Source: an uncultured Cohaesibacter sp.
GTDB lineage: Bacteria > Pseudomonadota > Alphaproteobacteria > Rhizobiales > Cohaesibacteraceae
Length of the DNA stretch: 64,000 bases
NCBI RefSeq assembly: GCF_963676485.1
Contig: NZ_OY781114.1
Span: 4,542,501-4,606,500 of the forward strand
Direction: 5' to 3'
Shown here: positions 32,328 through 39,855 of the stretch, one piece after another
How the letters are laid out: each line of letters begins with the position of its first letter
Position numbering within the stretch: position 1 is the stretch's first letter
Translations under genes and position numbers: made by a program
The notes under the pieces: generated by a model
What the model was told of the DNA's origin: nothing
What the model saw: the letters and a program-made list of their open reading frames with translations, nothing else
Database searches by the model: none

Positions 32328-32489
32328 ATGGCGCAGGCACCTTCCAAGGTGCAATGCAAAACGGAACCGTCGAGCGGTATGCTCGTCGTCATTACGGATC
32401 ACTGCATTGGTCCGGTTTCGGATAAAGACGACGATCTCGCACTTTGGTCCATTCTTTGGACCGGACTTGGAGGTCGCGCCCTTAAATAG
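32328..32489 (+). CDS. Possible 53-aa leader peptide overlapping the gltB start
   Basis: A short frame from ATG 32328 encodes 53 residues with a balanced, protein-like composition. It begins M-A-Q-A-P-S-K-V-Q-C-K-T-E, has V-I-T-D-H-C-I-G-P-V in the middle and ends L-W-T-G-L-G-G-R-A-L-K. Its TAG shares a base with the first GTG of gltB (TAGTG), a typical coupling overlap. Against it, no good ribosome site precedes the ATG; an inner ATG at 32379 has only GAGCGG. Hairpins GCACCTT/AAGGTGC, CGAGC/GCTCG and GGTCCA/TGGACC lie within it, so the segment may instead be a structured leader. Confidence 0.3.
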   Translation: MAQAPSKVQCKTEPSSGMLVVITDHCIGPVSDKDDDLALWSILWTGLGGRALK

Positions 32490-35400
32490 TGAGGATAAGC
32501 GGTTTGGAACAGTCTCAGAATCAATTCGGCCTGTATGACCATAGCTTTGAGAAAAGCAGCTGCGGTGTTGGCTTTTTGACTTACAAATCCGGTGTTCAAA
32601 CCCATGATGTTCTTGTAAAGGCGAACGAAGCCTTATGCACCGTTCCCCATCGTGGCGGCATGAGCGCTGAAGGCGTCGGCGATGGCGCCGGGGTTTGCGT
32701 TGATTTGTCTCTGTCTTTCTTCCGCAAGATCACCGGCCTTCCTACTCTGGAACTGGGCCAATTCGGCGTTGCCAACTTCTTCCTGCCGGAATTGAAAAAG
32801 AACTGGGATGCAGCAGACAAACTGATCAAGGAAAGCCTTGAGAAGAATGGCTTGCGCATCGTTCTTGTCCGCGACGCGCCGGTCAACAACTCTGTCATTC
32901 GTCCGGCTGCCCTCAAATACATGCTCACCGTGCATCAGGTCGTTTTCATTAAAGATGAAACGATGGACGCCAAAACCTTCGATCGCAAGATCCATGATGC
33001 GCTGATGGCGATTGAGTCAGTTGCCTATCTGGACCCTGACCTCAAGGGGCTGTATCCGCTCTCCATGTCTGCGCATACGCAGGTCTACAAGGGCCGCCTC
33101 AACTCAAACGAGGTCATTCCCTATTTCTATGATTTGACCGATGAAGATCACAAGATCCATTCGCTGTTCTTCCATACGCGCTTTTCGACCAATACCGAGC
33201 CGCAGCCTTCCATGGCGCAGCCGTTCCGTTTGATGGCGCATAACGGCGAGCTCAACACGGATAAGAAAAACCGTCTTTCTGAAGCGACCATCGCTCAGAT
33301 GAAGAACCAGCAGATCTATTCTCCTCCCGGACAATCGGACTCTGCGCGTCTTGACCAGACGCTGGAAAGACGCCTGATAGAGGACGATCTCGATCTGATC
33401 ACGGCGGTTGTGGCCATGATGCCGCCAGCTTGGGAAAATGACAGTCGGTTCCCTGAAGATGTTCGCGTCATGCTTGAATATTTCTCTCTTTATGAAGAGA
33501 AGAACGATGGCCCTGCCGCTCTGATCTTCGGCAACGGCTCAGTCGTTGGCGCTCGGCTGGACCGTTTGGGCCTGCGCCCCTTGCGGTCTGTCGAAACAGA
33601 TGAATATCTTTGCGTGATGTCTGAAGCCGGTCAGGTTGATTTCGAGCCTGAGAGCATCCTGCGGCGTGGACGCATCGAGGCTGGTGGCATGCTCTATTAT
33701 GATCATGAGACCAAGCAATCCTACACCTCCGATGAAGCCCTGAAGATTCTGGCCTCCAAGCGCGACTATCGTTCGTTGCTCGAAAGCGCACGCAAAAATC
33801 TCGATGATCTGCCACGCACGGACGGCAAGACCAAGGTTGCAGAATCCTTTACCGATGTGCAGCGCTCGGTTGCCTATGGTCTCAATCAGGAAAGCTTCAA
33901 GTTCTTGCTCGACCCGATGATGCAGACCGGCAAGGAAAAGATTTCGGCGATGGGCTACGGCGTAGCCATCAACGCCCTGACCGATCAGGAAGGGGGTATG
34001 TCGAAATACTTCTCCCAGCGCTTTGCTCAGGTTACCAACCCGCCGCTTGACAGCTTGCGTGAAGCCGACGGCATGACCTTGCGCGTCGCGCTGGGCGCCA
34101 AGCCGCACTTCAACAAAGGCGAAACCAAGCAGTTGGTGATCCCTACGCCTGTGCTTTCCCCTGATGACCTGTCTGCCATTCGTGCGCAGAGTGATGTGGA
34201 AATCACCGAAATTGAAATGACCTTCATCGTTGACCACAAGGCCGACGAAAAGAAAGCGCAGGATGATCTGATCGCTGCTGTCGATGCTGTGTGCGACCAG
34301 GTTGAAGCGGCAGCCCGCGAAAAAGGTGGCATCGTCATTCTGTCTGACGCGATGGTCGACGAGAAAAAGGCCGCCATTCCGTTGCCTTTGATGATTTCCG
34401 CAGCGAACCAGCGCCTCATTGAACAGGGTGTTCGCTTCCGTGTCTCTCTTGTTGCGGAAAGCGGCCAGATCGCTTCGGCCCATCAGATTGCAACGGCTCT
34501 GGGCTTTGGGGCCTCCGCTGTGATGCCCATCGTGGTAGAAGCGCGCGCCATGGAATTCGCCAAAGGTGATCTTGATGCTGCCAAAGCAAACATCAAGCAG
34601 TTCATCTCAGCGGCCAACAAGTCTCTCATGAAAACCATGGGTAAGGTCGGACTATGTACCGCTGAAAGCTACATTGGCGGTGAATTCTTCGAGCCGAACT
34701 TCCTTGACACGGACGAGCCTATCCTCAAGCGCTACTTCCCCAACATGAAAAACACGGTTGGTGGTGTGGACTTCGCCTCTGTTGCGAAAAGCGTTGTCGA
34801 CTGGCATATCCGTGCTTGCGAAGTGAAGACCGAAGATGATATTCCGCTGCTTGGCCTCTTCAAAGAGCGCTCTGAAGGTGCGGGCCATACCTACGGCACG
34901 CTCGCTGTTCGCGGTTTTGTCGAAATGACCGAAGAGCCGATCCAGTCGGATTTGTCTGCCCCTGAGAAAGGGGATGCAAATGTTGACGACCTGCGTCTTC
35001 TGCCGGTTGAAAAGCTCAAGGACGCCTATGGCAAAAGCTCGGATTCCTACCGCAATACCAGCTTTGGGCGCCGTACGCCGGAAGAAATCGACGCATTCAA
35101 GATTACGCCAAACTACCGCAAGTTCGCGCTGGAACTGGCCAAGGAACGTGAGGCGCGCCCTGCCGCTTTGCGCGATGTTCTTTGCTTCCCGACGGACATC
35201 AGCTGGGCGACCACGGCTGAAGAATTCCAGCATGAGCTGTTCCGCCACGACCTTATTGGCAACAACAATTTCTATGTTCGTGGCCTGCGGGTGCATCACA
35301 ATAAAGACGATAGCTTTACGGCCTTTTTTGCAAGCAAATACAGCCACGAAAGGCTGGTTGCCCTGTCTGTTGCGCTGAAAAAGCAGTTTGGCGGTGAATT

Positions 35401-37984
35401 GCTCAGCGTGGAGACCGACGGCGAGCATATTCACATCACAGCCAAGGGATTGGCCTATAACTATCTTGCAAACCACAAGCGCCCCAACGGCAAGTTGGCT
35501 CTGAACAAGGTTCAGCCTGCCCATGAGATCACGGCGATGCTGGCTTCTGGTGCCATGTCGCACGGTGCTCTGGTGGCCCCGGCTCACGAGGCCGTTGCTC
35601 ATGGAGCAAACATGGTTGGTGCCTTTTCCAACTCAGGTGAAGGTGGCGAGCATTATTCGCGCTATGGCACGATCCGCTCTTCGAGCATCAAACAGCTTGC
35701 ATCCGGTCGTTTCGGCGTCTGGACCGGCTATCTGGCAGATCCAACGCTGGAAGAGATCGAAATCAAGATCGCTCAGGGTGCAAAGCCGGGTGAAGGTGGC
35801 CAGTTGCCCGGTAAGAAAGTGACTGTCGAGATCGCCGCTGCCCGTGGTGGTACGCCAGGGGTCGAGCTCATCTCGCCTCCTCCGCATCATGACACCTACT
35901 CCATTGAGGATTTGGCACAGCTCATCCATGACGCCAAAGCAGCGCGTGTCCGGGTTATCGTCAAGCTGGTATCGTCTGAAGGCATTGGCACCATCGCTGT
36001 CGGCGTCGCCAAGGCCGGTGCCGACGTCATCAATATCGCCGGCAACACCGGTGGTACGGGTGCTGCCGCTGTGACGTCCCTTAAAAACACGGGCCGTGCG
36101 GCTGAAATCGGCCTTGCAGAAGTGCATCAGGCGCTCTGCGTCAACGGCCTGCGCGACAAGGTAATCTTGCGTTGCTCCGGCGCGCATCAGACGGCAACCG
36201 ACGTGGTTAAATCCTGTCTTCTGGGCGGTGACAGCTTCGAGTTCGGCACGACCGCTCTGATGATGCTCAAATGCGTTATGGCGAAAAACTGTAACGTCAA
36301 ATGCCCTGCCGGTTTGACGACGAACTCGGAAGTGTTCGATGGTGATCCGCGCGCGCTTGGCCAGTATCTGATGAATATTGCCCATGAATGCCGCGAAATT
36401 CTTGCCAATCTTGGCTTCAAGAGCATGCGCGAAGCGCGTGGTCGGTCCGACTATCTGCACCTGATCAAGCATCCAAGCGCGATTGGTCAGATGGATCTTC
36501 GCAAGATGCTGCAGGAAGTCAAAGAAGTTCATATCAAGGAACCGGTTTATCTGGAGGCGCATTTCGAGATTGACGACATGCTCTTGAAGGAATTCAAGAA
36601 CAAAGCCGTTCAGCGTCACCACCGGAAAGCCCACCTTATTGTCGAGAAGAAGCTGGACAACCGCAACAAGACGGTTGGCGGACAGCTGGCGATCGATATT
36701 GAGCGTATGCTGCAGCATGAGATTTCCGAAAAGCATGTGAAATCGATGCCGATGGTTTATACCGATGATCGCGGCCGCAACATGCTCAAGCCGGAAACGC
36801 TGGAGATCCATACGCACGGGTCGGCAGGTCAGTCTTATGCTGCCTTCTGTAACTCAGGCATGGTGTTCCACCATATTGGTACCTGCAACGATGGTGTCGG
36901 CAAGGGTGCATCCGGCGGCAATATCGCCATCCATACTCCGGGTGGTGGATCGGAAGAAAACTATCTGATCGGCAACTTCGCGCTCTTTGGCGCTTCCGGA
37001 GGATCGTTGTTTGTTGAAGGCGGCGCAGGCGACCGGTTCGGCGTTCGTAACTCCGGGGCAACGGCTGTTGTCGAAGGGGTTGGCGATTTTTGCGGTGAAT
37101 ATATGACCAATGGCGCCATCATGAACCTTGGCGGTTTTGGCAAAGGCTTCTGCAACGGCATGTCCGGTGGTGTCGCCTATCAGTATGATCCATATGATCA
37201 GCTGCCATCTCTTTACAGCCATGACTCGGTCAAGCTGCATCGTCTTGACGGCGACAGTGACCGCGCCAAGCTGCACCAGATCGCAGTGAAGCGCCTGCTT
37301 CGCCATCATGTCAAGTTTACCGGGTCGGAAAAAGCCAAGTTCCTGCTCGAGAATTTCGACAGCGAAATGGCCAACTTCAAGTTTGCCACGCCACTGGCGC
37401 TTGAAACCTACCAGAATTACGAAGCCATTCTGAAGGCCAAGCCGCGCAAGGAACTGACCGAAGAACTCGCAAATGCGCTGGTCTCCTACCAGATCCGCAA
37501 GTTCAAGCTGGCCTATCGTGATGGCACGGTGATTGCCAACGGCATCATTCCGCAGCAGGGTGAAACCGACACCAAGCTGATGTATGAGCTGATCAACAAC
37601 TTCACCGTCATCAACATGGCGCAACAGATTGTCAAAGGTCGGTATCGGGGTGAGGAAATCAGTGCGGAAACGCTTAATAGTGGCGTTCGCAAACTGATCC
37701 TTACGGAAGACTTCTCCCTGATGACAAAACTGTCCGGCATCGCGCGGAAGGCTCTGGAAGATTATTCCGATCTGGAACTGGCCGTGCTGGTTTCTGACAA
37801 GCGCATGCAGGACTATAAAACGGCACTGTCCAACCGAAATGTCCGCCTGATGGATTCCATTGGAACCTACGGCTGGATCCTGCTTCAGGATCGGTTGAAC
37901 CGCAATGCCATGGGCGAGTTGCCGGATTTCGAAAGCTTGTTTGCTGCGACTTCCAGCCAGGAACTGGTCAAGCAGGTGCCTTGA
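32489..37984 (+). CDS. gltB: Glutamate synthase large subunit, extended variant
   Basis: An 1831-residue glutamate synthase, about 300 residues longer than the usual 1480-1550. Order: a short propeptide with the N-terminal nucleophile Cys25 (S-S-C-G-V-G-F); the glutaminase domain to about 430; the central domain; an extra segment at about 900-1008; the FMN domain from about 1010 (G-A-M-S-H-G-A-L, then K-P-G-E-G-G-Q-L-P-G); 3Fe-4S cysteines 1262, 1268 and 1272; the GXGXG beta-helix about 1440-1640; and a C-terminal extension of about 175 residues. The cysteine spacing is C-x5-C-x3-C, whereas the usual is C-x5-C-x4-C. The start is GTG 32489, or TTG 32504 which has AGGA in front. It makes glutamate from glutamine and 2-oxoglutarate. 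No gltD follows; a diflavin reductase does. Confidence 0.9.
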   Translation: MRISGLEQSQNQFGLYDHSFEKSSCGVGFLTYKSGVQTHDVLVKANEALCTVPHRGGMSAEGVGDGAGVCVDLSLSFFRKITGLPTLELGQFGVANFFLPELKKNWDAADKLIKESLEKNGLRIVLVRDAPVNNSVIRPAALKYMLTVHQVVFIKDETMDAKTFDRKIHDALMAIESVAYLDPDLKGLYPLSMSAHTQVYKGRLNSNEVIPYFYDLTDEDHKIHSLFFHTRFSTNTEPQPSMAQPFRLMAHNGELNTDKKNRLSEATIAQMKNQQIYSPPGQSDSARLDQTLERRLIEDDLDLITAVVAMMPPAWENDSRFPEDVRVMLEYFSLYEEKNDGPAALIFGNGSVVGARLDRLGLRPLRSVETDEYLCVMSEAGQVDFEPESILRRGRIEAGGMLYYDHETKQSYTSDEALKILASKRDYRSLLESARKNLDDLPRTDGKTKVAESFTDVQRSVAYGLNQESFKFLLDPMMQTGKEKISAMGYGVAINALTDQEGGMSKYFSQRFAQVTNPPLDSLREADGMTLRVALGAKPHFNKGETKQLVIPTPVLSPDDLSAIRAQSDVEITEIEMTFIVDHKADEKKAQDDLIAAVDAVCDQVEAAAREKGGIVILSDAMVDEKKAAIPLPLMISAANQRLIEQGVRFRVSLVAESGQIASAHQIATALGFGASAVMPIVVEARAMEFAKGDLDAAKANIKQFISAANKSLMKTMGKVGLCTAESYIGGEFFEPNFLDTDEPILKRYFPNMKNTVGGVDFASVAKSVVDWHIRACEVKTEDDIPLLGLFKERSEGAGHTYGTLAVRGFVEMTEEPIQSDLSAPEKGDANVDDLRLLPVEKLKDAYGKSSDSYRNTSFGRRTPEEIDAFKITPNYRKFALELAKEREARPAALRDVLCFPTDISWATTAEEFQHELFRHDLIGNNNFYVRGLRVHHNKDDSFTAFFASKYSHERLVALSVALKKQFGGELLSVETDGEHIHITAKGLAYNYLANHKRPNGKLALNKVQPAHEITAMLASGAMSHGALVAPAHEAVAHGANMVGAFSNSGEGGEHYSRYGTIRSSSIKQLASGRFGVWTGYLADPTLEEIEIKIAQGAKPGEGGQLPGKKVTVEIAAARGGTPGVELISPPPHHDTYSIEDLAQLIHDAKAARVRVIVKLVSSEGIGTIAVGVAKAGADVINIAGNTGGTGAAAVTSLKNTGRAAEIGLAEVHQALCVNGLRDKVILRCSGAHQTATDVVKSCLLGGDSFEFGTTALMMLKCVMAKNCNVKCPAGLTTNSEVFDGDPRALGQYLMNIAHECREILANLGFKSMREARGRSDYLHLIKHPSAIGQMDLRKMLQEVKEVHIKEPVYLEAHFEIDDMLLKEFKNKAVQRHHRKAHLIVEKKLDNRNKTVGGQLAIDIERMLQHEISEKHVKSMPMVYTDDRGRNMLKPETLEIHTHGSAGQSYAAFCNSGMVFHHIGTCNDGVGKGASGGNIAIHTPGGGSEENYLIGNFALFGASGGSLFVEGGAGDRFGVRNSGATAVVEGVGDFCGEYMTNGAIMNLGGFGKGFCNGMSGGVAYQYDPYDQLPSLYSHDSVKLHRLDGDSDRAKLHQIAVKRLLRHHVKFTGSEKAKFLLENFDSEMANFKFATPLALETYQNYEAILKAKPRKELTEELANALVSYQIRKFKLAYRDGTVIANGIIPQQGETDTKLMYELINNFTVINMAQQIVKGRYRGEEISAETLNSGVRKLILTEDFSLMTKLSGIARKALEDYSDLELAVLVSDKRMQDYKTALSNRNVRLMDSIGTYGWILLQDRLNRNAMGELPDFESLFAATSSQELVKQVP

Positions 37985-38042
37985 GCACCTGCTTTCCAAG
38001 ACGTCCTTTCGATATCAATTTCAATTGACGGATCAATGAGAG

Positions 38043-39797
38043 ATGACCATACCTTTCCTTCCTGATGACTCCCCATTCTCTGAAGACCAGAAATCCTGGT
38101 TGGCCGGCTTCTATGCGGGACTGCACACCCAGATGCTTGTCGGCAAGAAGTCCTCTACGTCTGAATCCCAGTCAACGATCACCGCCCACATCCTTTTCGG
38201 CACCCAGACGGGGAACTCGGAAGGTTTGGCTGAAGACTTTGCGGCCACGCTCAAGGCCGAAGGCGTCAACGCTGTTGTGGCTTCTCTTGATGATGTGGAA
38301 GTGCCCGCGCTGGTCGAGATGAATTATGTCTTCCTGATCACCTCCACCTATGGTGAAGGGGAAATGCCCGACAATGCGCAACTCTTCTGGGATGCCCTCA
38401 AGGCAGCGGATGCCCCTCGCCTCGAACATATGCATTTCTCGGTTCTGGCGTTGGGCGATACTGCTTATGACGGCTTCTGCGAAGCCGGCAAGCAGTTTGA
38501 TCTGCGCTTTGAACAACTGGGCGCCAAACGCCTCGCTGGCCGGGTTGATTGCGATGTCGACTTTGAAGAAAGCGCCGATGGCTGGATGGCTGCTGCGCGT
38601 GAAGAACTCGCAAAGCATAAACCGGAAGATGCCGGAGGCCCGATCCCACACAGCGCCGCGGCGGCTGCCAAGCCTGCCAAGTCCAAATGGACGCGCAAGA
38701 ACCCGTTTGAGGCTCCGGTCGCTGTCAATCATCTGCTTTCCGGCGAAGGCTCGGCCAAGGAAATCCGCCACTATGAGTTTGATCTTTCCAACGATGGGCC
38801 AAACTATGTGGCAGGCGATGCGCTAAATATCATCCCGACCAACGACCCTGCCCTCGTCGCCGAATGGCTGGACTATATGGGAGTATCAGGGGACACCGCT
38901 GTTTCCGGCAAAGATCAGTCCCTTGAGGAGTTGCTCTTCAGTCAGCTGGAAATTTCAACGCCTTCAAGCGAATTCATCAAGGCGATTGCCGCGCGTACGG
39001 ATGATGAGCATCTCCAGCATATCGTGGACTTCAGTGACAAGGAGGCCATGGAAGCCTATTTGTGGTCCAAGGATGCGCTGGACATTGCACGCCTGCACCC
39101 AAAGGCACGCTTCTCGGTTGATGAGCTGATCAGACTCTTCAAGCCATTGCAGCATCGCGCCTATTCCATTTCGTCCAGTTCCAAGATGTTCGAGGATAGT
39201 GTGCATTTGACGATTGCATCCGTGCGCTATGAAAGCCATGGGCGCAAGCATGGCGGCGTTGCCTCCTGCTTCCTAGCTGATCGTGTGGGCAACGAAAAAT
39301 CAAAGGTTTTTGTTTCACCCAACAAGAGCTTCAGGGTGCCAGAGAGCAATGATGTACCAATGATCATGGTTGGTCCGGGCACCGGCATCGCGCCGTTCCG
39401 CGCGTTCCTTCAGGAGCGTCAGGCAATTGGAGCCAAGGGCTATAACTGGCTGTTCTTTGGCGACCAGCATGAAAAGTCCGACTTCATCTATAAAGATGAA
39501 TTGTCCAAGATGCAGTCCGATGGCATTCTGAACCGCCTCGATCTGGCTTTCTCACGCGATCAGGCTGAGAAGATCTATGTCCAGACCCGCATGAAAGAGC
39601 ATGCCAAGGACCTGTTCGCAGCGCTTGAAGAAGGCGGCCATTTCTATGTCTGTGGCGATGCAACCCGCATGGCCAAAGACGTGGACCGCGCTTTGCACGA
39701 AGTGATCTCCGAGCAAGCAGGGCTTAGCGAAGATGGGGCCATGGACTATGTCAACCTGATGAAAAAGGAAAAGCGCTACGTTCGCGACGTCTATTGA
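38043..39797 (+). CDS. CysJ-like diflavin reductase (FMN/FAD/NADPH)
   Basis: A 584-residue flavoprotein. A short helix (S-E-D-Q-K-S-W-L-A-G-F) precedes the flavodoxin domain with FMN loop G-T-Q-T-G-N-S-E at 53-60. The FAD domain carries R-A-Y-S-I-S-S-S at about 372, and the NADPH domain has G-P-G-T-G-I-A-P-F-R near 444, C-G-D-A near 540 and terminal aromatic Tyr. This matches the sulfite reductase alpha subunit architecture. However, no cysI hemoprotein gene is in the window. The gene starts 58 bases after gltB in the same direction and shares its terminator. It may therefore deliver NADPH electrons to GltB; a stand-alone sulfite or nitrite reductase role is the alternative. Confidence 0.87.
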   Translation: MTIPFLPDDSPFSEDQKSWLAGFYAGLHTQMLVGKKSSTSESQSTITAHILFGTQTGNSEGLAEDFAATLKAEGVNAVVASLDDVEVPALVEMNYVFLITSTYGEGEMPDNAQLFWDALKAADAPRLEHMHFSVLALGDTAYDGFCEAGKQFDLRFEQLGAKRLAGRVDCDVDFEESADGWMAAAREELAKHKPEDAGGPIPHSAAAAAKPAKSKWTRKNPFEAPVAVNHLLSGEGSAKEIRHYEFDLSNDGPNYVAGDALNIIPTNDPALVAEWLDYMGVSGDTAVSGKDQSLEELLFSQLEISTPSSEFIKAIAARTDDEHLQHIVDFSDKEAMEAYLWSKDALDIARLHPKARFSVDELIRLFKPLQHRAYSISSSSKMFEDSVHLTIASVRYESHGRKHGGVASCFLADRVGNEKSKVFVSPNKSFRVPESNDVPMIMVGPGTGIAPFRAFLQERQAIGAKGYNWLFFGDQHEKSDFIYKDELSKMQSDGILNRLDLAFSRDQAEKIYVQTRMKEHAKDLFAALEEGGHFYVCGDATRMAKDVDRALHEVISEQAGLSEDGAMDYVNLMKKEKRYVRDVY

Positions 39798-39825: not shown

Positions 39826-39855
39826 AAGCCAGCTTTTAAAGCTGGCTTTTTTATT
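39826..39855 (+). terminator. Terminator of the gltB-diflavin unit
   Basis: AAGCCAGCTTT and AAAGCTGGCTT form a perfect stem followed by a TTTTTT run, about 30 bases after the diflavin stop. The gltB-to-terminator span contains no other terminator, supporting one transcript. Confidence 0.88.

Follow-up and report, generated by a model that had tools for sequence, protein, structure and literature searches.

At low ammonium, glutamate synthase is a main point of nitrogen entry into metabolism, and a section of a 2021 review recognizes two kinds of electron input to the enzyme, GltD-type subunits (using NADPH or NADH, and also fused in eukaryotes) and ferredoxin; the word 'diflavin' is absent from the text of that review (PMC8097209). 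Here we describe a gene pair that may represent a third, in a 64,000-nucleotide stretch of the genome of an uncultured Cohaesibacter sp. (contig NZ_OY781114.1; hereafter the window, with positions counted from its first letter). The first gene, gltB-L, encodes a long form of the glutamate synthase large subunit (GltB-L; 32489..37984, forward strand; 1831 amino acids from a GTG at 32489), and the second, 58 base pairs (bp) downstream on the same strand, is an open reading frame (ORF; 38043..39797, 584 amino acids) for a CysJ-like diflavin NADPH reductase, of the type that binds flavin mononucleotide (FMN) and flavin adenine dinucleotide (FAD). An earlier interpretation made from the letters of the window alone (the sequence-only reading) had described an extended GltB followed at this distance by such a reductase, and both ORFs and their Pfam domains confirm it. 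From comparative sequence evidence, we propose that the two proteins constitute a two-component NADPH-dependent glutamate synthase in which the diflavin protein stands in GltD's place, a reading to which we assign a probability of roughly 0.8.

With the GltB/GltD enzymes of Azospirillum brasilense and Escherichia coli, this system shares the four large-subunit domains, the glutaminase and synthase motifs, the three cluster cysteines and, presumably, NADPH as donor; it differs from them in having no GltD, in two extra segments, in a C-x5-C-x3-C cluster motif, in its separate clade, and in a diflavin partner without iron-sulphur clusters. The ferredoxin-dependent glutamate synthases of cyanobacteria and chloroplasts likewise have a large subunit that works without GltD, but GltB-L has a dedicated NADPH reductase encoded next door. 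Those enzymes carry a ferredoxin-binding loop in the FMN domain; GltB-L has no extra residues at the loop position relative to cyanobacterial proteins that are themselves not shown to be of the ferredoxin type, and it falls outside a tree group that includes two cyanobacterial proteins whose donor type is not established. The reductase has the FMN, FAD and NADPH domains of CysJ, but its partner is GltB-L rather than CysI, it lies in a separate clade, and it scores below two cysJ equivalog cut-offs. In NasN, a mycobacterial diflavin nitrate reductase, a diflavin module also takes over the electron supply of a nitrogen-assimilation enzyme, but NasN reduces nitrate and is a single chain (PMC11001197). 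Among the titles and abstract openings of open-access papers we found no description of the GltB-L/reductase pair, which is not proof of novelty.

The evidence that carries our reading is, first, the constancy of the pair. In a close-range sample of 101 genomes (the window's own and 100 relatives), 99 of which had a GltB match, the long form occurs in 23: 18 in the genus, counting the window's own, one elsewhere in the family and four in other families. A reductase ORF lies 3' of GltB-L in all 23, seen in part, as these loci end inside the ORF. With a profile of the C-terminal extension, 3 of 385 genomes of the class and 6 of 398 of the phylum (own included) proved to have the long form, and the reductase stands next to it in each of the seven distant long-form genomes newly found; at least 27 of the 80 named-genome loci that were kept are of the long form, and the reductase follows in 27/27. 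Nine plasmid records also carry it, with the reductase next in all five that were opened. On four of these the next gene is annotated as sulfite reductase alpha/flavoprotein subunit or cysJ, the fifth, unannotated, encodes both proteins, and GltB-L itself appears in plasmid annotation as 'glutamate synthase-related protein' or gltB. In total, the pairing holds in 62 of the 62 long-form loci examined, from Pseudomonadota and Actinomycetota and from chromosomes and plasmids (at least one contig, L070/L031, is counted twice). Across the 398 phylum genomes, a reductase profile reaches at least 886 bits in exactly the six that encode GltB-L; the next score is 721. The pairing is conserved far above chance: the sequence-only reading would have been refuted by the lack of a common neighbourhood in related genomes, the 62 loci show the opposite, and this type of reductase co-occurs with GltB-L in the same six phylum genomes.

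Carriers of the long form include Cohaesibacter, Pseudovibrio, Labrenzia, Rhizobium, Agrobacterium, Paracoccus and Yoonia (on a plasmid), as well as Methylobacillus, Methylococcaceae, Hydrogenovibrio and Pantoea and, among actinobacteria, Rhodococcus, Mycolicibacterium, Herbiconiux and Curtobacterium; the pair appears to have spread horizontally as a two-gene cassette. Beyond the pair itself, neighbours shared among 31 loci (named by eye) comprise ABC-ATPase-like ORFs (seven), a HemS-like gene (five) and a dehydrogenase-like family (three), the remainder being shared by pairs of loci only. In the draft genome of Methylobacillus glycogenes (L072) the downstream reductase is in two pieces and both genes are interrupted, by sequencing error or decay.

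The second line of evidence is the missing GltD. The sequence-only reading had found neither gltD nor cysI in the window, and this absence extends across the genome (5.08 Mb in two contigs, 96.72% complete, with the window on the 4.87-Mb contig): a search showed no normal gltD elsewhere, the best match to the GltD model TIGR01317 scoring 260.6 bits against a cut-off of 447.7, and no match to the sulfite/nitrite reductase domain PF01077 (NIR_SIR). We searched for GltD at E<=1e-60 in 36 genomes (the 23 close ones with the long form and 13 with ordinary GltB) and in the seven distant long-form genomes. Scores above the cut-off came from 2 of 30 genomes with the long form (1/23 close, 1/7 distant) and from 13 of 13 ordinary ones. 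In the window genome, no protein other than GltB-L was found to combine glutaminase with synthase parts, so that it is presumably a housekeeping enzyme there. No glutamate dehydrogenase (PF00208) passes the cut-off in this genome, the one weak match lying in a 1623-residue frame that we take to be, probably, a large catabolic NAD enzyme.

Could GltB-L instead draw on ferredoxin or on a GltD-like protein, with the reductase recharging the carrier or serving another partner, such as a HemS-like haem protein? The best GltD-like proteins of the window genome are one of NfnB type (L005) and two larger proteins, and L005 passes the cut-off of TIGR01316, a model titled NADPH-dependent glutamate synthase, which would so label this NfnB-like protein. 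Diflavin reductases feed haem oxygenases elsewhere, and in 7 of 47 long-form loci the gene directly behind the reductase is HemS-like (two of the stretches from one genome; 46 of the 47 have at least 1 kb downstream). Upstream of L005, however, lies an ORF with the Fe-S domain PF10418, an arrangement as in NfnAB; a match of the L005 type is missing at E<=1e-60 from 8 of the 22 close genomes without GltD, of which one is only 64% complete; and 40 of the 47 loci gave no HemS match, leaving GltB-L as the invariant partner. We therefore consider this alternative unlikely. As a missed GltD, L005 was rejected, since it adjoins the NfnA-like gene, and the sulfide dehydrogenase of that kind in Pyrococcus is NfnI, according to the same review (PMC8097209). 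Its region (G000:C1:1264823-1269181) holds the NfnA-like and NfnB-like genes and then an ORF that looks by eye like a 2-oxoacid oxidoreductase.

The site of insertion in some genomes offers a further indication that the pair stands in for gltBD. Four Pantoea-type genomes have the order arcB, gltB-L, reductase, sspB, sspA, rpsI, rplM; in E. coli K-12, yhcC, gltB and gltD lie, among others, between arcB and sspB. Two of the Pantoea-type genomes (G630 and G811), which fall near the two named Pantoea in the reductase tree described below, yielded no GltD at E<=1e-60. We read this gene order as pointing to replacement of gltBD in place by gltB-L and the reductase. In the distant genome G533, one contig (C1; L187, L057) has arcB and yhcC and then, on the other strand and in tandem, gltB, gltD, gltB-L and the reductase, possibly an intermediate state of that replacement.

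GltB-L itself retains what a glutamate synthase would need. It has all four Pfam domains of the large subunit (GATase_2, Glu_syn_central, Glu_synthase and GXGXG); against the large-subunit model NF008730 it scores 1013.2 bits, below the cut-off of 1047, which its relative in G533 (L057) exceeds with 1095.2. Cys25 (codon 32561..32563, forward strand), in a CGVGF motif that aligns with ordinary GltB, is expected to become the N-terminal nucleophile of the glutaminase once a short propeptide is removed; CGVGF is present in 43 of 46 long-form proteins, and the remaining three lack the N-terminus. Conserved along with Cys25 are the glutaminase motifs HRGG, RFSTNT and HNGELNT and the synthase motifs ASGRFGV and QGAKPGEGGQLP, which we take to have their usual catalytic roles.

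Three features set the protein apart. At the boundary of the central and FMN domains, residues ~803-1005 (34895..35503, forward strand) stand in place of ~50 residues in the solved chains 7mfm, 6s6s and 1ea0; this insert belongs to no known family, and its best match against PDB sequence profiles has an E of 0.33. It is predicted to form a small alpha/beta domain in a model of residues 850-1008 (predicted local distance difference test score, pLDDT, 81.5; 56-73 over the first 50 residues), for which no PDB fold was matched at E<=0.001. After position 1635 there are ~196 residues in GltB-L, compared with 20-49 in the same three chains; most of these make up a C-terminal extension (residues ~1641-1831; 37409..37981, forward strand) that is predicted to be helical and matches no family over cut-off. 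Finally, the [3Fe-4S] ligand motif, C1262-x5-C1268-x3-C1272 (36272..36304, forward strand), is one residue short of the ordinary C-x5-C-x4-C. Every long-form protein compared has the shortened motif (30/30 and 27/27, and 46/46 in a pooled, overlapping set), and ordinary loci in the same scan have C-x5-C-x4-C wherever the pattern matched. The extra segments and the altered motif probably form a docking face for the reductase. The shortened motif, the wide horizontal spread and the link to iron discussed below go beyond the sequence-only reading.

In a tree of 18 long-form and 24 ordinary GltBs (a chosen subset; of 43 rows requested, one truncated row was left out), the long form is separated from the ordinary form by a branch with support of 100. 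Such a long branch, together with several FMN-domain residues that differ from ordinary GltB, might suggest that the enzyme aminates another 2-oxo acid and is no glutamate synthase, as might the position of GltB-L directly beside a gltB-gltD pair in G533. The conserved glutaminase and 2-oxoglutarate/FMN motifs speak against such a shift, as does the location of gltB-L at the gltBD site of Pantoea-type genomes; moreover, among the matches listed (down to about 1e-110), G094 is the only one of the 23 close-range carriers with an ordinary GltB. A different substrate thus seems highly unlikely.

The reductase shows a corresponding separation from CysJ. Its Pfam domains (Flavodoxin_1, FAD_binding_1 and NAD_binding_1) follow CysJ's FMN/FAD/NADPH order, yet it falls below the cysJ equivalog cut-offs of TIGR01931 (605.5 versus 668.15 bits) and NF008197 (505.5 versus 838). 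When 46 GltB-linked reductases (47 loci minus the interrupted L072) are placed in one tree with 24 others, the two sets lie on the two sides of one branch, with a Shimodaira-Hasegawa-like approximate likelihood ratio (SH-aLRT) support of 98 by a quick method; among the others, 4/4 scanned neighbours were of CysI type, and in one scanned row the protein is joined to a molybdopterin reductase. For 42 loci (the 47 minus L072 and another four whose genes are incomplete), the pairwise distances of GltB-L and those of the reductase correlate with r=0.945, a value that none of 2,000 permutations reached, all lying at or below 0.24, although shared descent alone raises r. In 7 of 46 loci (three not callable) a candidate start of the reductase overlaps the gltB-L stop by 4 nucleotides.

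The plainest competing account of these data is that the reductase is an ordinary CysJ serving the sulfite reductase CysI, with its place beside gltB-L incidental. The protein does pass the cut-off of one model named for that enzyme (PRK06214, NF004859, sulfite reductase subunit alpha; 445.7 versus 432 bits), the solved sequences closest to it are CysJ (410.9 bits to structure 6efv), and a NIR_SIR protein is encoded by 20 of the 23 long-form genomes at close range. Yet the sulfite reductase that the PRK06214 name implies was not found in the window genome, which is one of three among the 23 without a NIR_SIR match and in which the reductase is the only protein with FAD_binding_1 (PF00667). For this genome, a role as the CysJ of a sulfite reductase was therefore rejected, and the cysI elsewhere that would have counted against the sequence-only reading was not found; in the 20 genomes with a NIR_SIR protein the same test is indecisive. 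Also set against this account are the two unmet equivalog scores, the separate clade, the 62/62 pairing and a second diflavin protein in four of the six phylum genomes with GltB-L (in one case within a 1419-residue frame), and we regard it as very improbable.

How might the two proteins work together? Diflavin reductases can oxidize NADPH by two electrons and deliver these one at a time with flavins alone. Transfer from CysJ to CysI is a precedent for direct delivery from such a reductase, and NasN (PMC11001197) is another. In the proposed system, NADPH would reduce the FAD of the reductase, from which electrons would pass to its flavodoxin-type FMN and then, singly, to the [3Fe-4S] cluster and on to the FMN of GltB-L; the latter would reduce 2-iminoglutarate to glutamate, using ammonia that the N-terminal domain releases from glutamine. 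The step from reductase FMN to cluster we infer, as we do the formation of a complex, the electron path and the docking role. The third electron route put forward in the sequence-only reading is supported by the pairing and by the absence of GltD, with direct electron transfer resting on inference. The diflavin reductase would substitute for GltD together with its two [4Fe-4S] clusters, so that a protomer would contain ~3 Fe instead of 11.

That saving suggests a purpose. A report on Caulobacter lists ordinary gltB (-2.5) and gltD (-2.3) among genes lowered under iron limitation (PMC3751524), and the iron-sparing RNA IsrR of Staphylococcus aureus has gltB2 among its putative targets (PMC9410917), so iron sparing at glutamate synthase is a known need. 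We consider it moderately probable that GltB-L and its reductase serve this end. Somewhat less firmly, though still on the favoured side, we picture the [4Fe-4S]-free, flavin-fed cassette as an iron-starvation isozyme in some lineages that spread horizontally and displaced gltBD in Cohaesibacter, Pantoea and others. The isozyme role draws on iron-type boxes in actinobacteria and on the HemS-type gene directly behind the pair in G094, a genome that keeps gltBD.

We looked for the boxes over the 480 bp that precede the Cys codon, using 60 block-shuffles and a 19-bp IdeR/DtxR consensus. Six actinobacterial loci scored 16, 16, 15, 14, 12 and 9 of 19, and the first five of these beat all 60 shuffles; at p<=0.02, no such box was found in the other 36 long-form loci or in the 33 scoreable ordinary loci (of 57 given). 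Over whole loci, the 104 kb of actinobacterial sequence contain five sites of at least 14 and the 588 kb of remaining sequence a single one; four of the five actinobacterial sites stand 108-167 bp before the Cys codon (in four of six loci). In other 480-bp stretches of the same loci, the promoter's score was equalled one time in L153 and in none of L080, L088, L093 and L099; L081 has no IdeR/DtxR-type site. As L080 and L099 are close relatives, the boxes come from about three lineages.

The HemS-like gene, found at L059, L079, L080, L088, L091, L095 and L152, may belong to the operon and draw on the same reductase; of three such proteins compared with Pfam, two gave a HemS match and the third had no match. 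Three long-form loci (L054, in part, L072 and L152) have a gene resembling TonB receptors close by, and the same queries for haem and iron uptake matched none of 56 ordinary gltB loci, a set that differs in taxonomy from the long-form one. These iron-uptake-like neighbours and the IdeR/DtxR-type boxes point to iron rather than to the other purpose we considered, adaptation of the enzyme to oxygen, nitric oxide or superoxide. [4Fe-4S] clusters are sensitive to oxidants, and relief from that sensitivity would be compatible with the same mechanism; as an explanation of why GltD was exchanged, we hold it to be possible, if doubtful.

Beyond the NIR_SIR proteins mentioned above, several observations weigh against our interpretation. 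Two genomes, G094 (close) and G533 (distant), retain gltD alongside the long form, and some that lack GltD are incomplete (G005, 64%; G019, 87%). In the window organism, the GltD-like proteins L005, L006 and L007 may be donors, a matter on which sequence alone is indecisive. Six other genomes of the genus hold a PF00208 protein (~180 bits), so that ammonium entry there need not be through GltB-L only. With regard to iron, the 480-bp scan found no iron-type box at the window's operon or at four Pantoea-type promoters, where constitutive expression would be expected of a sole glutamate synthase; outside Actinomycetota, Fur-type boxes are weak (2/36 loci at p<=0.02), and no Irr-type box reached 12 of 14. 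Lastly, the AlphaFold model of the synthase half is poor (pLDDT 64); its 50 listed Foldseek matches are GltB/Fd-GltS and other barrels (among them flavocytochrome b2, IPP isomerase and IMPDH), and it was too weak to be used in considering docking.

If the diflavin-fed form is real, annotation of this gene pair would change, and it would exemplify an essential iron-rich step rewired to spare iron, an amino-acid counterpart of flavodoxin replacing ferredoxin. As a two-gene system, it is directly testable by complementation in E. coli.

Several smaller features of the locus bear on its expression. An alternative start of gltB-L, a TTG at 32504, has an AGGA 8 nucleotides upstream, and similarity to relatives begins near residue 6; this TTG, rather than the GTG at 32489, may be the start. 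A perfect 10-bp inverted repeat (37970..37994, forward strand) without a good T-run spans the gltB-L stop codon ahead of the reductase gene, and might set the relative amounts of the two proteins. The single strong terminator of the sequence-only reading can be seen by inspection as an intrinsic terminator-like hairpin with a T-run (39826..39852, forward strand), but is absent from the terminator list of a pattern scanner. Searched with Rfam at gathering scores, the whole window gave one tRNA and no regulatory RNA.

Elsewhere in the window genome, L002 (G000:C1:3669179-3673135) encodes a 553-residue Glu_synthase-domain protein in which no glutaminase motif was seen; it appears by eye to be membrane-anchored and has the ordinary C-x5-C-x4-C motif. 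Thirteen matches in phage records were considered as long forms and rejected (30.9-34.4% identity, at most 78% query coverage). Short unannotated 'phage' records from Listeria, Staphylococcus, Salmonella and Escherichia contain gltB-like fragments that are perhaps host DNA.

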